Shown here: positions 5,136 to 9,659 of the stretch, in pieces
Position numbering within the stretch: position 1 is the first letter of the stretch
How the letters are laid out: the number at the start of each line of letters is the position of its first letter
Origin: a virus
Reading direction: 5' to 3' (one strand)
Virus record (IMG/VR): IMGVR_UViG_3300028829_004944
Location: 1 to 29,291 of that record
Length of the DNA stretch: 29,291 nt
Made by a program: the position numbers and the translations under genes
The notes under the pieces: model-generated
Database searches by the model: none
What the model was told of the DNA's origin: nothing
The model's input: only the letters and a program-made list of their open reading frames with translations

Positions 5136-5206
5136 TCGGCCTCCGTGCCTCGATCTACTGATACGGGAAACCTACTCCTATCCTCGGACGAATGTCTAGT
5201 CGATCC
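5136..5206. repeat. 71-bp direct repeat, copy B (promoter plus leader)
   Basis: Second copy of the repeat at 4807-4877, 67 of 71 positions identical. It also covers the last codons and stop of the initiator gene (5196-5906), so both upstream proteins end in the same RID tripeptide. Less complete versions of the same leader lie at 3222-3295, 12450-12525 and 28954-29022. Confidence 0.85.
5169..5198 (-). promoter_or_regulatory. Dispersed-family promoter
   Basis: TAGACA (5193-5198) and TAGGTT (5169-5174) have an 18-base spacer on the minus strand. The block CTAGACATTCGTCCGA is perfect; the upstream arm of the inverted repeat is degraded, as in the copy at 4840. The TAG stop of the initiator gene is embedded in the -35 box. 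It drives 4867-5133. Confidence 0.68.
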
Positions 5207-5906
5207 TCTTCCCGGCCGCGAGACGCTCGACGAGCGACGAGAGTTCCGCCCGTCCCTTCCGTTCGAGTTCTCCCGCCGACTCCGACGACGATCCCCCCGA
5301 AGGGATCGGCGTCGTCGGAGAAACTTCTCTATACGGAGTAACCCCTTTAGGGGTTACTCGTTTCGTGGTGACCGTTACATCGTCCGGATTGCGACCGTTC
5401 GGCGACAGCCCTCCGGTCTTCTTCTTCGCGCGGTGTCGCCGGACCCGCTCTCTCGTCCGCTCCCTCTCGCGGTCCTTCGCGGCCTTCGAGTCCGCCGCCG
5501 TCGGCTGATAGTCGAGGTAGTCGTGAACCTCGTACCCGTCGGCGATCTCTTCCCATAGCCCGACCTCGACGAGACGCTTTACGAGCCGCTGCCGACGACG
5601 ATCGAGAGCCCGCTTCGCCTTCCGCTCGTCGTCGGTAACGTCGCCGCCCTGTAACGGTGTAACGGTATCTGAAACGCCGTTACGCGGCGACAGCCCGGCG
5701 ACAGCCCGGCGACAGGGGTCGGGCCAGACTTCGAGGTCGACGAAGTCGGCGACGAGCGACGGGACGACGTCCTTCGGGATCTTCCCGTCGGTTAGATGAC
5801 TCGCCGCGTACCCGATCGAGCGGAGGTAGAGGAGCATCCCCGCTCCCTTTACGGCGACGAGTTTCGGATGCGAGAGCGCGGTCGCCTCGATACGAACCCA
5901 GGGCAT
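5196..5906 (-). CDS. Probable phage replication initiator / DNA-binding protein
   Basis: 236 residues. The opening MPWVRIEATALSHPKL with GAGMLLYLRSIGYAASHLTDGKIPKDVV matches the winged-helix N-terminus common to actinophage and integrative-element replication proteins (start with W/F-VR, ...HPK..., ...LTDG.IP...). A long basic region follows (DDERKAKRALDRRRQRLVKRL; RERERTRERVRRHRAKKK at about 142-162). The C-terminus, Ser/Gly/Glu-rich then helical, could contact a helicase or loader. By analogy with DnaD- and lambda-O-like initiators it likely opens the origin and loads the replisome. The gene carries unusual repeats at 5281-5359 and 5635-5717, supporting an internal origin. Family assignment is from pattern memory. 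Confidence 0.6.
   Translation of the reverse strand: MPWVRIEATALSHPKLVAVKGAGMLLYLRSIGYAASHLTDGKIPKDVVPSLVADFVDLEVWPDPCRRAVAGLSPRNGVSDTVTPLQGGDVTDDERKAKRALDRRRQRLVKRLVEVGLWEEIADGYEVHDYLDYQPTAADSKAAKDRERERTRERVRRHRAKKKTGGLSPNGRNPDDVTVTTKRVTPKGVTPYREVSPTTPIPSGGSSSESAGELERKGRAELSSLVERLAAGKRID
5281..5359. repeat. Two inverted repeats inside the initiator gene
   Basis: First, TCCGACGAC (5281-5289) plus GATCCC pair with GGGATC and GTCGTCGGA (to 5319), with a three-base bulge. Second, 5336-5359 is a perfect 24-base palindrome built on GAGTAACCCCT. Both lie in the last quarter of the gene, far from any gene end, so they are unlikely to be terminators for it. The AT-rich centre of the second is unusual in this GC-rich region. 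Confidence 0.7.
5635..5683. repeat. GTAACGG iteron-like cluster
   Basis: GTAACGG occurs at 5651-5657 and 5659-5665 as direct copies eight bases apart and at 5677-5683 inverted. A GTAACGT variant is at 5635-5641. Another inverted copy lies at 5372-5378, beside the palindrome whose arms also begin GTAACC. The motif is scarce elsewhere in what I read. It may be a recognition site for the protein encoded by the same gene. Confidence 0.55.
5685..5717. repeat. Tandem 11-bp repeats, three copies
   Basis: CGGCGACAGCC is repeated at 5685-5695 and 5696-5706, and as CGGCGACAGGG at 5707-5717; a further full copy stands at 5400-5410. The 11-base period is not a multiple of three, so the three units are read in three different frames within the initiator protein. 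About one helical turn per unit would place binding sites on one face of the DNA. Confidence 0.8.
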
Positions 5907-6113
5907 CTACTCGTCTCCCCGGTCGAGGAGAGCGAGGGCTTCGTCCGCCGCGCGATGACAGTCGCGGGTCAGTCGCCATTCGAGTTCCTCGATCGCGCGA
6001 ACCTCCTCGGCGGTAATCCGATCTCCTCGGGCGATCTTCTCGCGGATCAGCGTTAGCGCGGCGGGAGCCCGGACGGACGCCGCGCCGATCGCTCCGGGGT
6101 CGTCGCCTACCAC
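5907..6113 (-). CDS. Hypothetical small helical protein
   Basis: 68 residues with a GTG start at 6113 behind GGAAGG, overlapping the methyltransferase stop by seven bases. The sequence is Ala/Arg/Glu-rich and almost entirely helical (ALTLIREKIARGDRITAEEVRAIEELEWRL; HRAADEALALLDRGDE). No motif recognised. Its stop abuts the start of the initiator gene (TAG followed directly by ATG), so it is part of the same transcript as the ParB-like/glycosyltransferase/methyltransferase run and the initiator. Confidence 0.6.
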   Translation of the reverse strand: MVGDDPGAIGAASVRAPAALTLIREKIARGDRITAEEVRAIEELEWRLTRDCHRAADEALALLDRGDE

Positions 6114-6820
6114 GACGTCGCCTTCCGCGCGACGAGTCCCTCGAAGCCGAGAGCCCGGTAGAAGGAGAAGACGTCCGAGTACCCGGCCGACCGGAGGAAC
6201 TCGCGGTTCGCCTCCGGCGTCGCCGGGAAGACGACCGGGTTCATCTTCGACTCGGTAACGAACCCGGTCGACGTCCGGAACTTCTCGTACGCCGTCGTCG
6301 TTACCCGATCCGCGTACGGGCTCGGCTCGACGATCTTCTCGACGAGGACGATGACGCCGTTCGGGTTCGTGATCCGGTAGAGGTCGCCGAAGAACGCCGG
6401 ACGCTTCTCGACCGGGATGTGATGAACCGCGAGGACGGCGAGCACGACGTCGTATCGGATCGCCGGTCCGAGATCGCGGTCGTTCGCCGACCGCTTCGCA
6501 TGGCCTTCGGCGAAGTCGTTTACGACGGTGACGTTCGGGAATCCGGAGAACCGATCTCTCGCGACTCGGTAAACGGGCTCGCGTTCCTCGACGGCGAAGA
6601 CGTTGGCACCCGCCGTCGCGAACGGAGCGACCGCGTCGCCGCGTCCGGTCCCTACGTCGAGGACGTACGCTCCTCGGATCTCCCGGCAGGGCGGGAGCGC
6701 CGACGATACGACGAGCGGGACGAGCGAGCGGAGAGCCGAGAGTGCCGGGATCGACCGGGCCAGCATATGCTTCTCCGTATCTTCGAGCGTCGCGCGATCC
6801 TTCGCGTTCCCTTCGGTCAT
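6107..6820 (-). CDS. CmoA-like SAM-dependent methyltransferase
   Basis: 237 residues, a complete class I fold: motif I VLDVGTGRGD at 53-62, an acidic loop VFAVEERE at 75-82, YDVVLAVLAVHHIP at 123-136, and GVIVLVEKI at 155-163. The segment ARSIPALSALRSLVP near the N-terminus and the tail (YEKFRTSTGF...REFLRSAGY...FYRALGFEGLVARK) resemble CmoA, which makes carboxy-SAM for tRNA U34 modification. CmoA uses an arginine after the equivalent of TGF (Arg199 in E. coli, as I recall) to hold the carboxylate. Here the stretch reads TESKMNPV, with no obvious arginine, so ordinary methyl transfer is possible. The start overlaps the glycosyltransferase stop (ATGA). A role in DNA-base decoration is inferred from context; tRNA is the alternative. 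Confidence 0.72.
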   Translation of the reverse strand: MTEGNAKDRATLEDTEKHMLARSIPALSALRSLVPLVVSSALPPCREIRGAYVLDVGTGRGDAVAPFATAGANVFAVEEREPVYRVARDRFSGFPNVTVVNDFAEGHAKRSANDRDLGPAIRYDVVLAVLAVHHIPVEKRPAFFGDLYRITNPNGVIVLVEKIVEPSPYADRVTTTAYEKFRTSTGFVTESKMNPVVFPATPEANREFLRSAGYSDVFSFYRALGFEGLVARKATSW

Positions 6821-7728
6821 GACCTTGCCTCCGTAATCGGCGTTGGCTGTTCCTGAAACCTATCGAGGAGCCCTCGGAGATACTCGGACTCGACCGGCCG
6901 GACCTCTTCGAGCCGGAGCCCGAACTCGTCGCGGGCCGGTAGCGCGGCGAGGTCGACGTCGTCCCGGAGTTCGAGCGGCGTCGTGAAGCGTCCCCAATCG
7001 ACGACGTGCTGCGGCCTGCCCCATCGCCACCCGGTCGTAACGATGCCCGGCCACGCGGATTCGAGGGCTCGCGCCATACGGAGCCGCCCGTCTCCCTGAT
7101 ACGAGATCGGACCCTCCGCCGTATAGTTCCCTCCCTTCACGGTCATCGTCGTCTTCTTGTCGATCATGAAGACGTTGACCAGGACGGTCGCGAACCCGTC
7201 GGCGAGTACCTGTAGGCAGAGATCGGTGTCGTCGTTATAGAGGAGCCGCCACCGGTGCGGGATCGCGTTATTGACCAGCGTGCCGGAATAGACGTGCACG
7301 TTCGTACGGTACGGCGGCGACGTCGGCGTGACGAACATCTGGTAGTTGAACCCGGCGAGAGCGACGTTCCGGTAGCGGTCGACGAACTCCTCGATCGCCC
7401 GGAAGCCGGGACCGGAGTCGCAGGGGATACGCTCGCCTCCGTAGAGGCGACGAACTCCCCCGATGTTGTCGTCGAGTTGCCAGTGCCTCTTCGCGCCGAT
7501 CGACAGCGAGTGATCCATACAGAAGTTCCTCGCGAAGATCAGCCCGCGGTTCGAGTCCGGGAGGACGAGTATCTGCTTCTCCGGGACGACCCTCCGGTAC
7601 TCGTCGAACTCCTGCTCCTCGACGACGAGGTAGAAGGGAACGCGATCGCGGGTCAGGAACTTAGCGGTCAGCGCGGAGTCGTATCGGCTCTTGCTCGGAA
7701 CGTAGACCGGGTACTTCGGAAGGCTCAT
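6817..7728 (-). CDS. TET-associated-type glycosyltransferase (TAGT-like)
   Basis: 303 residues from the ATG at 7728, which overlaps the ParB-like stop (ATGA); the longer frame upstream only shadows the ParB-like gene. It opens YPVYVPSKSRYDSALTAKFL, then LPDSNRGLIFARNF (57-69) and HWQLDDNI (82-89), a DxD-like metal/nucleotide-sugar site of a GT-A fold. A second acidic motif NDDTDL lies at 165-170. These features match my memory of the TET/JBP-associated glycosyltransferases, a family that also includes a domain of animal GREB1. In phages they add sugars to modified bases. No TET/JBP dioxygenase or cytosine methylase is in this window, so the substrate is open. Neighbours: ParB-like and CmoA-like genes. 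Confidence 0.7.
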   Translation of the reverse strand: MSLPKYPVYVPSKSRYDSALTAKFLTRDRVPFYLVVEEQEFDEYRRVVPEKQILVLPDSNRGLIFARNFCMDHSLSIGAKRHWQLDDNIGGVRRLYGGERIPCDSGPGFRAIEEFVDRYRNVALAGFNYQMFVTPTSPPYRTNVHVYSGTLVNNAIPHRWRLLYNDDTDLCLQVLADGFATVLVNVFMIDKKTTMTVKGGNYTAEGPISYQGDGRLRMARALESAWPGIVTTGWRWGRPQHVVDWGRFTTPLELRDDVDLAALPARDEFGLRLEEVRPVESEYLRGLLDRFQEQPTPITEARS

Positions 7729-8354
7729 CGAGAGACCTCCGGCTTCGATACGAACCGGAGCGAGGCGAGATCCTTCTTCGCGCGGTTCGGCCACCACACC
7801 GAGAGCGTCCCCCGCGTCCCCTTGTGGATCGTCTCGATCCCGAGTACGTCGAAGAGGGCGTCGCGGTCCTCCTCCGTCTCGCATGAGATCACGACCTTGT
7901 AGGACTCGGTCGCCGGGAGGAACTCCGGGAGCCCGACCCATTCGTGATCGGCGTCCTTCGACGCCGCGTTGATCTCGTCGATCTCCTCGTCGTCGGCTTC
8001 CCCCTTCCGCGTCGCGAGTGCCTCGACGAGTTCCTTCGAGACGCCGCCGTCGGCGGGAGCGTCGAGGAACGTCATCTGATCCGCGGACTCGACGAGTTCC
8101 TCCGCGACTTTCATCCGGACCGCGATGTGTGTCCAGCCGAGTTCGCGAGCGGCGGTCAGTAGGTGCTGCCGCGCGACGACGTCGACTCCGTTCTCGGCGA
8201 CGAGTACCGGACGGACTTGTCCGGTATCGACGAGCGCCTGCTTGACCCGAGCCGGGTCGCCTCCGCCTCCGGGACTATCCCGGAGATCGCCGATCGCGAC
8301 GAGGTACGGCCGGAGCATCTCCGACCCTTGCCACTTGCCTGTCAGTTCTTCCAT
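7725..8354 (-). CDS. ParB-like domain protein
   Basis: 209 residues, ATG 8354, preceded by GGCACGGAGGCCGTAGAACG. Residues 14-82 follow the ParB N-terminal pattern: LRPYLVAIGDLRDSP, then RVKQALVDTGQVRPVLV, then a GxHR-like spot reading VVARQHLLTAARELGW and an IAVRMKV strand. The C-terminal part (about 152-190: YKVVISCETEEDRDALFDVLGI...GTLSVWWP) is the small domain often joined to ParB domains in DNA-modification clusters. ParB domains bind CTP and clamp DNA; in modification clusters their exact job is unknown. There is no ParA gene, so chromosome-style partitioning is unlikely. It leads the coupled run with the glycosyltransferase and methyltransferase. Confidence 0.75.
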   Translation of the reverse strand: MEELTGKWQGSEMLRPYLVAIGDLRDSPGGGGDPARVKQALVDTGQVRPVLVAENGVDVVARQHLLTAARELGWTHIAVRMKVAEELVESADQMTFLDAPADGGVSKELVEALATRKGEADDEEIDEINAASKDADHEWVGLPEFLPATESYKVVISCETEEDRDALFDVLGIETIHKGTRGTLSVWWPNRAKKDLASLRFVSKPEVSR

Positions 8355-8381: not shown

Positions 8382-8879
8382 TTACGAGACTGCCTCGACG
8401 TTCGCCCGGTACGCGGCGTATGCCATCAGGAGAGCGTCGAGCCCGTCCTGCCGGACGTCTTCTCCTTCCGGGTAGATCTCGACCGCGAGAGCCCGGACGT
8501 CGTCCTTCTTCGCGTTCCCCTTTAGCCCGGCTCCCTTCTTCCATTCGCCCGGCGTCGGTCGCCAGATAGGAGCGTCGGGCCAGATCGTCGTCGCGATACC
8601 GGCGACGATCCCCGCGGCGTCCGCGACGCGGAGCATCGACTGTATTCCTCGCCCGCCTCCGACTCGCTCGACGACGACCTGCGCGACGAGCCATCCTCGT
8701 TCGGAGACGGTCGCCTTCGAGAGAGCGGCGTACGCGCATTGCTCGTACCAGCCCTCGCTGCTAATCGGAGTCCATCCCGCGAGGAGGGCTTCTCCGTTCG
8801 TCGCGTCGAGGACGCCGAAGCCGATCCCCGGAACCTGCGCGTCCAGACCGAGTATGACCGGCCTGTAGTTCGTCGTCAT
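8382..8879 (-). CDS. RuvC-like Holliday junction resolvase
   Basis: 165 residues with an RNase H-like layout. VILGLDAQVPGIGFGVLD (8-25) gives the first acidic residue at D13, AQVVVERVGGGRG (66-78) gives E71, and QDGLDALLMAYAA (144-156) gives the last pair D145/D148, as in RuvC and its phage relatives. The segment PGEWKKGAGLKGNAKKDDVR is the basic DNA-contacting loop typical of the family. It would cut branched DNA before packaging or during recombination. The start shares one base with the stop of the zinc-finger gene (TGATG). Length is close to RuvC (about 170). Confidence 0.8.
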   Translation of the reverse strand: MTTNYRPVILGLDAQVPGIGFGVLDATNGEALLAGWTPISSEGWYEQCAYAALSKATVSERGWLVAQVVVERVGGGRGIQSMLRVADAAGIVAGIATTIWPDAPIWRPTPGEWKKGAGLKGNAKKDDVRALAVEIYPEGEDVRQDGLDALLMAYAAYRANVEAVS

Positions 8880-9182: not shown

Positions 9183-9659
9183 CTACCCGTAGAAACAGCG
9201 GTGGGCGCCCCAGGCCGTTATCCCGAAGCGATCGCGGATCGCGTCGCCGACGAGGATCGTCTCCCACTTATCGCCGGACCAGAGCCGGTAGGGACTCCGG
9301 GCGGCGTACCAGGTCGAGCGGTAGATGCCGAGCCCGCCACCCCATGTCGGTCCTTGATGCGACCACCGAACGCCGTCGCCGTACTTCGAGTAACCGGGCT
9401 GCTCGCACCGACCGAGCCGGACGAAGCCGCGCCAATCCGGGACACGCTTCGCGACGTCGCGGCGCGTCGGGTTCGGCGGGAACTTCATCGCGTCCCGCTT
9501 CCTCTGCTTCCGGTACGCGGCGAGGCAGAGAGCCTTCTCCTTCCCTTCGTGGAGGTAGCAGGGTCGCCGCTTCCCGGCTCCGTCCGCGCGGAACGCGAAG
9601 AGAAGGAGGAAGCCGAGGACGATCGCTGCCCAGAAGAGGAGTGCCGCTCGCCCGCTCAT
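9183..9659 (-). CDS. Membrane-anchored Rpf/transglycosylase-like protein
   Basis: 158 residues. An N-terminal membrane segment (about 5-23, ALLFWAAIVLGFLLLFAF) without a clear signal-peptidase site suggests anchoring with the rest outside. The C-terminal domain (about 75-156) has WRGFVRLGRCEQPGYSKYG...GGGLGIYRSTWYAA...TAWGAHRCF, the layout of resuscitation-promoting factors and related lytic transglycosylases, with E86 as the expected catalytic glutamate. Four cysteines (34, 45, 85, 155) could form disulfides. It would cut peptidoglycan. It stands among DNA-metabolism genes, far from the lysis genes at 13770-15090, so a role other than final lysis is possible, such as superinfection exclusion or a late lysis helper. 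Confidence 0.68.
   Translation of the reverse strand: MSGRAALLFWAAIVLGFLLLFAFRADGAGKRRPCYLHEGKEKALCLAAYRKQRKRDAMKFPPNPTRRDVAKRVPDWRGFVRLGRCEQPGYSKYGDGVRWSHQGPTWGGGLGIYRSTWYAARSPYRLWSGDKWETILVGDAIRDRFGITAWGAHRCFYG

Follow-up and report, generated by a model that had tools for sequence, protein, structure and literature searches.

The ParB-like, TAGT and methyltransferase genes described here are best read as a DNA hypermodification cassette, as an earlier note on the same DNA had proposed, and it is a real possibility, though short of a probability, that their ParB/WGMP-TAGT part glycosylates phage DNA and that the methyltransferase then decorates the product. In this mechanism, the ParB-fold domain and the adjoining domain that we name WGMP below would bind or position the DNA and the TAGT, the TAGT, drawing on a nucleotide-sugar donor, would attach a sugar to the phage DNA, either at a hydroxyl of a modified base or on a sugar already in place, the co-translated class-I methyltransferase would O-methylate the product (at a sugar hydroxyl or carboxylate) using ordinary SAM, and the decorated DNA would be hidden from host restriction. 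DNA is probably the acceptor of the TAGT, and it is tentatively on the sugar that we place the methyl group. The identities of the parts, the overlaps of their genes, the conservation of the ParB/WGMP-TAGT arrangement and the recurrence of methyltransferases and sugar-nucleotide enzymes beside it are computed results.

The window, by which we mean the entire IMG/VR record IMGVR_UViG_3300028829_004944 (29,291 bp, 66% G+C), is probably a genome fragment. It comes from an uncultured bacterial virus with a siphovirus-like gene set (portal, protease, capsid, tape measure and further tail genes, on the minus strand) and includes a DNA-metabolism block of exonucleases, a Gp3-like recombination directionality factor, a RuvC-like resolvase and a replication-initiation-like protein, within which the four ORFs of the cassette sit. 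These are all on the minus strand and overlap end to end, exactly as the earlier note had described: the ParB-like protein (209 aa, 7725..8354), directly preceded by the RuvC-like resolvase (8382..8879, minus strand; phrog_1770, 3.8e-8), the TAGT glycosyltransferase (303 aa, 6817..7728), the class-I SAM methyltransferase (237 aa, 6107..6820) and an orphan ORF with a GTG start (68 aa, 5907..6113). At the first two junctions (7725-7728 and 6817-6820), the stop and start codons share an ATGA, an arrangement suggestive of translational coupling; at the third (6107-6113), the orphan ORF overlaps the methyltransferase stop by 7 nt, and it abuts the next gene of the operon, which starts at 5906 and encodes the replication-initiation-like protein (5196..5906, minus strand; phrog_2447, 1.1e-26). 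The orphan has no match in Pfam, PHROG or NCBIfam and no homologue in the related TAGT loci. Elsewhere in the window, the product of 9183-9659 has a hydrophobic stretch at its N-terminus and a sequence pattern reminiscent of resuscitation-factor-like transglycosylase domains, possibly a sign of an actinobacterial host; it matched no family.

The earlier note had made its TAGT assignment dependent on an HMM match, and the 303-aa product covers the full PF20691 model with 151.5 bits (cut-off 27.5; 3.9e-44), matches phrog_842 (3.4e-34) and carries LDDN and N-[DE]-D-x-D motifs (NDDTDLCLQ in the window) that are conserved in an alignment of the window protein with 12 relatives. By sequence, it classifies as a true TAGT. 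The name of the family originates in its association with TET/JBP enzymes, which is not required for membership in PF20691. A sequence search of the PDB returned no relative of the window TAGT; related loci numbered 77 in a first scan, and a profile gave at least 594 matches. The characterised T6 member attaches a second glucose to already glucosylated hmC in DNA, and the TAGT fold is a GT2-like GT-A fold (PMC13216743). According to the same 2026 paper, 288 of 753 phage genomes encode TAGT homologues but neither an α- nor a β-glucosyltransferase, and TAGT function is yet to be defined (PMC13216743); for the branch to which the window protein belongs, we found no biochemistry on any member. The window TAGT shares with the T-even β-glucosyl-HMC-α-glucosyltransferase (PF20691, phrog_842) the same domain above the Pfam cut-off and the same conserved motifs, but differs from it in having a ParB-WGMP partner, and a hydroxymethylcytosine pathway is not seen in the window.

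That this partner is ParB-like, as previously suggested, is weakly indicated by sequence (phrog_8071, 4.6e-7; no Pfam match) and further by its fold and by homologues beside other TAGTs. In a Foldseek search, its AlphaFold model (pLDDT 78) retrieved Noc, ParB, KorB, PadC and sulfiredoxin (E from 3e-5, probability 1.0), and the N-terminal domain is thus predicted to have the ParB-N/Srx fold. The window copy is degenerate, as it reads VARQ where relatives have the ParB motif AGHG, and the conserved GHG/GHHR-type motif is not present in it. The last ∼70 residues, for which the protein was split before searching, constitute a separate family with the pattern EWxGMPEF ... KTKSxWYP, which we name WGMP and which no Pfam model matches. 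In the window, the domain spans residues ∼137-204 of the ParB-like protein (7743..7946, minus strand; EWVGLPEF...KGTRGTLSVWWP) and was recognised by jackhmmer and through TAGT fusions in isolates.

We searched for this domain in 161 related TAGT loci, 112 of them non-redundant, and found it in 147 of the 161; as the loci were picked as close relatives of the window TAGT, the counts for these loci apply to that branch rather than to all TAGTs. Upstream of the TAGT it occurs in 99 of the 112 non-redundant loci, fused to ParB in 75 and standalone in 24, mostly at a spacing of no more than 100 nt; in a dozen loci the gap is some 400-1,070 nt, and usually holds a second TAGT or another ORF. It lies downstream in 4 loci and was not found in 9, in 4 of which the TAGT is at a contig edge. 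About 19 of the 112 loci hold more than one TAGT. WGMP is also joined to the TAGT N-terminus in the isolates POP12 and PTm1 and, more weakly, in Vibrio phages 1.076.O and 1.124.O, and in locus L037 the ParB region and the TAGT form a single ORF. The upstream adjacency, together with these fusions, marks WGMP as a partner module of the TAGT: the constant unit is WGMP and TAGT, with ParB as a frequent addition, and the adjacency of ParB/WGMP and TAGT, recurring in 99 of 112 non-redundant relatives, exceeds chance. ParB-TAGT often directly precedes terminase and portal genes (e.g., loci L003, L005, L006, L014 and L023), which suggests that the modification is linked with packaging.

Related loci also hold companion enzymes. 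A second family of class-I methyltransferases, with no detectable similarity to the window methyltransferase, is present in 8 of the 112 non-redundant cassettes and is joined in front of ParB in locus L013. Among PF08241 methyltransferases of the relatives, 5 of 11 non-redundant ones lie within 1.2 kb of the TAGT, where 0.9 would be expected (P about 0.001, or 0.007 with a 2-kb limit; the window is excluded from this count). Genes for UDP-glucose dehydrogenase occur in 4 of the 112 loci and SDR sugar-nucleotide enzymes in 9; the SDR proteins of loci L142 and L119 match UDP-glucuronate decarboxylase (4e-121, PDB 4gll, and 4e-88, respectively), and that of L028 is GalE-like. UDP-glucose 6-dehydrogenase or UDP-glucuronate decarboxylase (UDP-xylose synthase-like) genes adjoin ParB-TAGT at L026:2766-3650 and in L062, L067-L069, L119, L142, L156 and L172. 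By their sequences, such genes point to phage-made sugar donors and to a possible xylosylation of DNA. The identity of the transferred sugar is a matter of inference; with dehydrogenase, decarboxylase and GalE-like genes beside TAGTs, the donor sugar probably varies and would include UDP-xylose-type donors. The earlier note had missed both the WGMP domain and these sugar-nucleotide enzymes. Phage DNA is known to be pentosylated in the T-even arabinosylation clusters of RB69 and Bas46 (PMC13216743, PMC13390438), a likeness to those cassette relatives that hold sugar-nucleotide enzymes able to make pentosyl donors; the glycosyltransferase system is different, however, and the window itself is without pentosyl-donor enzymes.

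The methyltransferase had been described as CmoA-like, with a possible carboxymethyl-type role. The 237-aa product matches Methyltransf_25 (Pfam, 5.7e-10) and phrog_4752 (1.4e-20; annotated as tRNA methyltransferase) and falls in a CmoA/CysG/MM_2633-like group. The CmoA likeness holds at a distance, at 33 bits against the NCBIfam model TIGR00740 (cut-off 193) and with CmoA among the fold matches, but CysG-type O-methyltransferases match equally well: the folds nearest to its model are CysG (2e-15), MM_2633 (7e-15) and CmoA (3.5e-14), which are small differences; the model has a pLDDT of 75 and was built from just eight sequences, seven of them CmoA-type. The carboxymethyl part fares worse. Six CmoA-type phage proteins score 89-166 bits on TIGR00740, with the experimentally verified S-B43 enzyme at 115.6, and in the alignment the window enzyme has a 6-residue gap where CmoA has the helix with K198/R199 (198-203), has HHI in place of the LQF motif, is without the W-x-F N-terminus and has GTGRG, not CmoA-type residues, in its SAM-binding loop. 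K198 is kept in all 11 aligned CmoA-type sequences; R199, which in E. coli CmoA contacts the carboxylate (PMC4482062), is not invariant, being Glu in S-B43 CmoA. The E. coli CmoA sequence in this alignment was entered by hand, and a later profile search reached the PDB entries of CmoA through the phage proteins. A carboxy-SAM synthase identity was rejected on these active-site residues and the TIGR00740 score.

The carboxyl O-methyltransferases CysG and BelI depend on a metal and have a His-His-Asp site (PMC11408123), and theirs is the closest or near-closest fold to the window enzyme. The histidines at residues 133-134 align with the HHD motif, whereas the aligned Asp (D191) was not seen on reading by eye in a region with pLDDT below 50, and R187 is apparently not kept either; the biological setting is also unrelated. 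As the motif is only partly kept, we do not assign the enzyme to CysG. A canonical DNA methyltransferase was likewise rejected, since DPPY/NPPY and PCQ motifs are absent from the product, which makes direct base methylation by it unlikely. From its sequence and model, the protein is best called a class-I SAM methyltransferase that is distantly CmoA-like and unlikely to be a carboxy-SAM synthase. A search of viral contigs found no close relatives of it, and a search with Alcaligenes CmoA as the query found no relatives; nor does its family stand beside a TAGT in any relative sampled, including the closest, L002, so that the window is the sole place in our samples with a CmoA/CysG-type methyltransferase beside a TAGT.

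In spirit, the CmoA idea was right, since elsewhere phage CmoA and a cytosine transferase make carboxymethylcytosine, although it is unsupported for the window enzyme: phage CmoA and the C5-carboxymethyltransferase CmoX yield 5-carboxymethylcytosine in a pathway to which an amide ligase and ParB are often added (PMC12783734). With the CmoA-CmoX-CmoY pathway of S-B43 (PMC12783734), the window shares a ParB-type partner, the same broad methyltransferase group and a compact phage cluster; it differs in that its enzyme is without the CmoA active-site features, CmoX and CmoY are not seen, and a TAGT is present instead. CmoA/ParB or similar arrangements also occur in PaBG, TurkishDelight and Evaa. 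The clusters of Streptomyces phage TurkishDelight (L096) and Gordonia phage Evaa (L095) are of CmoA type with ParB and methyltransferases, annotated as generic methyltransferases only, and are candidate 5-carboxymethylcytosine systems in actinophages; that of TurkishDelight also holds a gene with a glutamine amidotransferase domain. CmoA clusters and TAGT cassettes have homologous ParB domains (E to 1e-34); a search for WGMP in the CmoA clusters found none.

For the window's own methyltransferase, we think it very improbable that a divergent CmoA makes carboxy-SAM for a C5-carboxymethyltransferase encoded outside the fragment, giving 5-carboxymethylcytosine to which the TAGT or another enzyme adds a sugar. 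The residual TIGR00740 score, the fold match, the demonstrated phage pathway with its frequent ParB (PMC12783734) and the homology of that ParB to the one in the window speak for it, against which stand the altered active site, scores far below those of CmoA-type phage proteins, the absence of a CmoX-like gene from the window, and a lack of overlap above cut-off in our samples, with a TAGT in none of 21 CmoA-type phage records and CmoA in none of 42 TAGT records. It is also unlikely, though deserving of weight, that the enzyme is an operon passenger acting on tRNA, protein or a small molecule while ParB-TAGT glycosylates DNA alone. Its family's confinement to this one TAGT locus, the commonness of overlaps in compact phage operons and the tRNA annotation of phrog_4752 are what such a passenger would show; against this, a different methyltransferase family has come to occupy this slot several times over and is even fused to ParB, methyltransferases are enriched near TAGTs, and in PaBG the phrog_4752-type protein belongs to a ParB/C5-methylase/asparagine-synthase cluster rather than standing among tRNA genes. 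The methylation step of our preferred mechanism rests on gene coupling and on this repeated recruitment of a different family, and could be wrong.

The glycosylation step is backed by conservation, fusions and the characterised homologue, and the alternatives here concern the acceptor. By the classical TET route, the 5hmC or 5hmU that the TAGT glycosylates would come from a TET/JBP enzyme and a C5-methylase encoded elsewhere in the genome; we hold this route to be rather unlikely, and it is compatible with glycosylation followed by methylation. The name and history of the family favour it, as do two neighbourhoods: a TET/JBP-family protein (L019:12456-13331) two genes downstream of ParB-TAGT, with a second ParB between, which also counts in favour of DNA glycosylation as such, and, in the closest relative, a short C5-cytosine-methylase-like protein (L002:7269-8054, 261 aa) ∼1.3 kb upstream of ParB-TAGT. 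Family searches in the window found no TET/JBP, C5-methylase or thymidylate-synthase family member, in agreement with the earlier note as to the first two. Against the route, TET/JBP turned up in 1 of 50 related records and C5-methylase in 6 of 50, several of these records being longer than 60 kb, and the thymidylate-synthase fold was present in 1 of 38; given that many records are fragments, these are lower bounds; the label TET-associated, applied earlier to the window's glycosyltransferase, does not suit this branch. The scarcity of acceptor-making enzymes among relatives would fit a TAGT branch that glycosylates a non-DNA target (a protein of the virion or the host, or a polymer of the cell surface), as would the GT2-like GT-A fold (PMC13216743) and the many cassettes adjoining terminase and portal genes, but we consider this improbable, since a ParB-type domain partners the TAGT in 75 of 112 loci and the characterised TAGT acts on DNA (PMC13216743). 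Counting against our preferred mechanism are that neither the window nor most relatives show a source of the acceptor hydroxyl (TET, C5-methylase or hydroxymethylase), though many records are fragments, that the methyltransferase family of the window stands beside a TAGT in the window alone, and that the window has no sugar-nucleotide enzyme.

More speculatively, and with rather less confidence, ParB/WGMP-TAGT may represent a widespread, largely TET-independent system of DNA glycosylation with variable donor enzymes, including those of UDP-xylose type, in which the window phage would methylate the DNA-borne sugar. To our knowledge, a methylated sugar has not previously been described as a DNA modification of this kind. 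Testable handles on TAGT function, namely on the base, the sugar and the role of the partner domain, come from the ParB/WGMP partner and from the genes for UDP-glucose dehydrogenase and UDP-glucuronate decarboxylase nearby, and new DNA decorations bear on restriction, on CRISPR evasion and on DNA-glycosylase defences.
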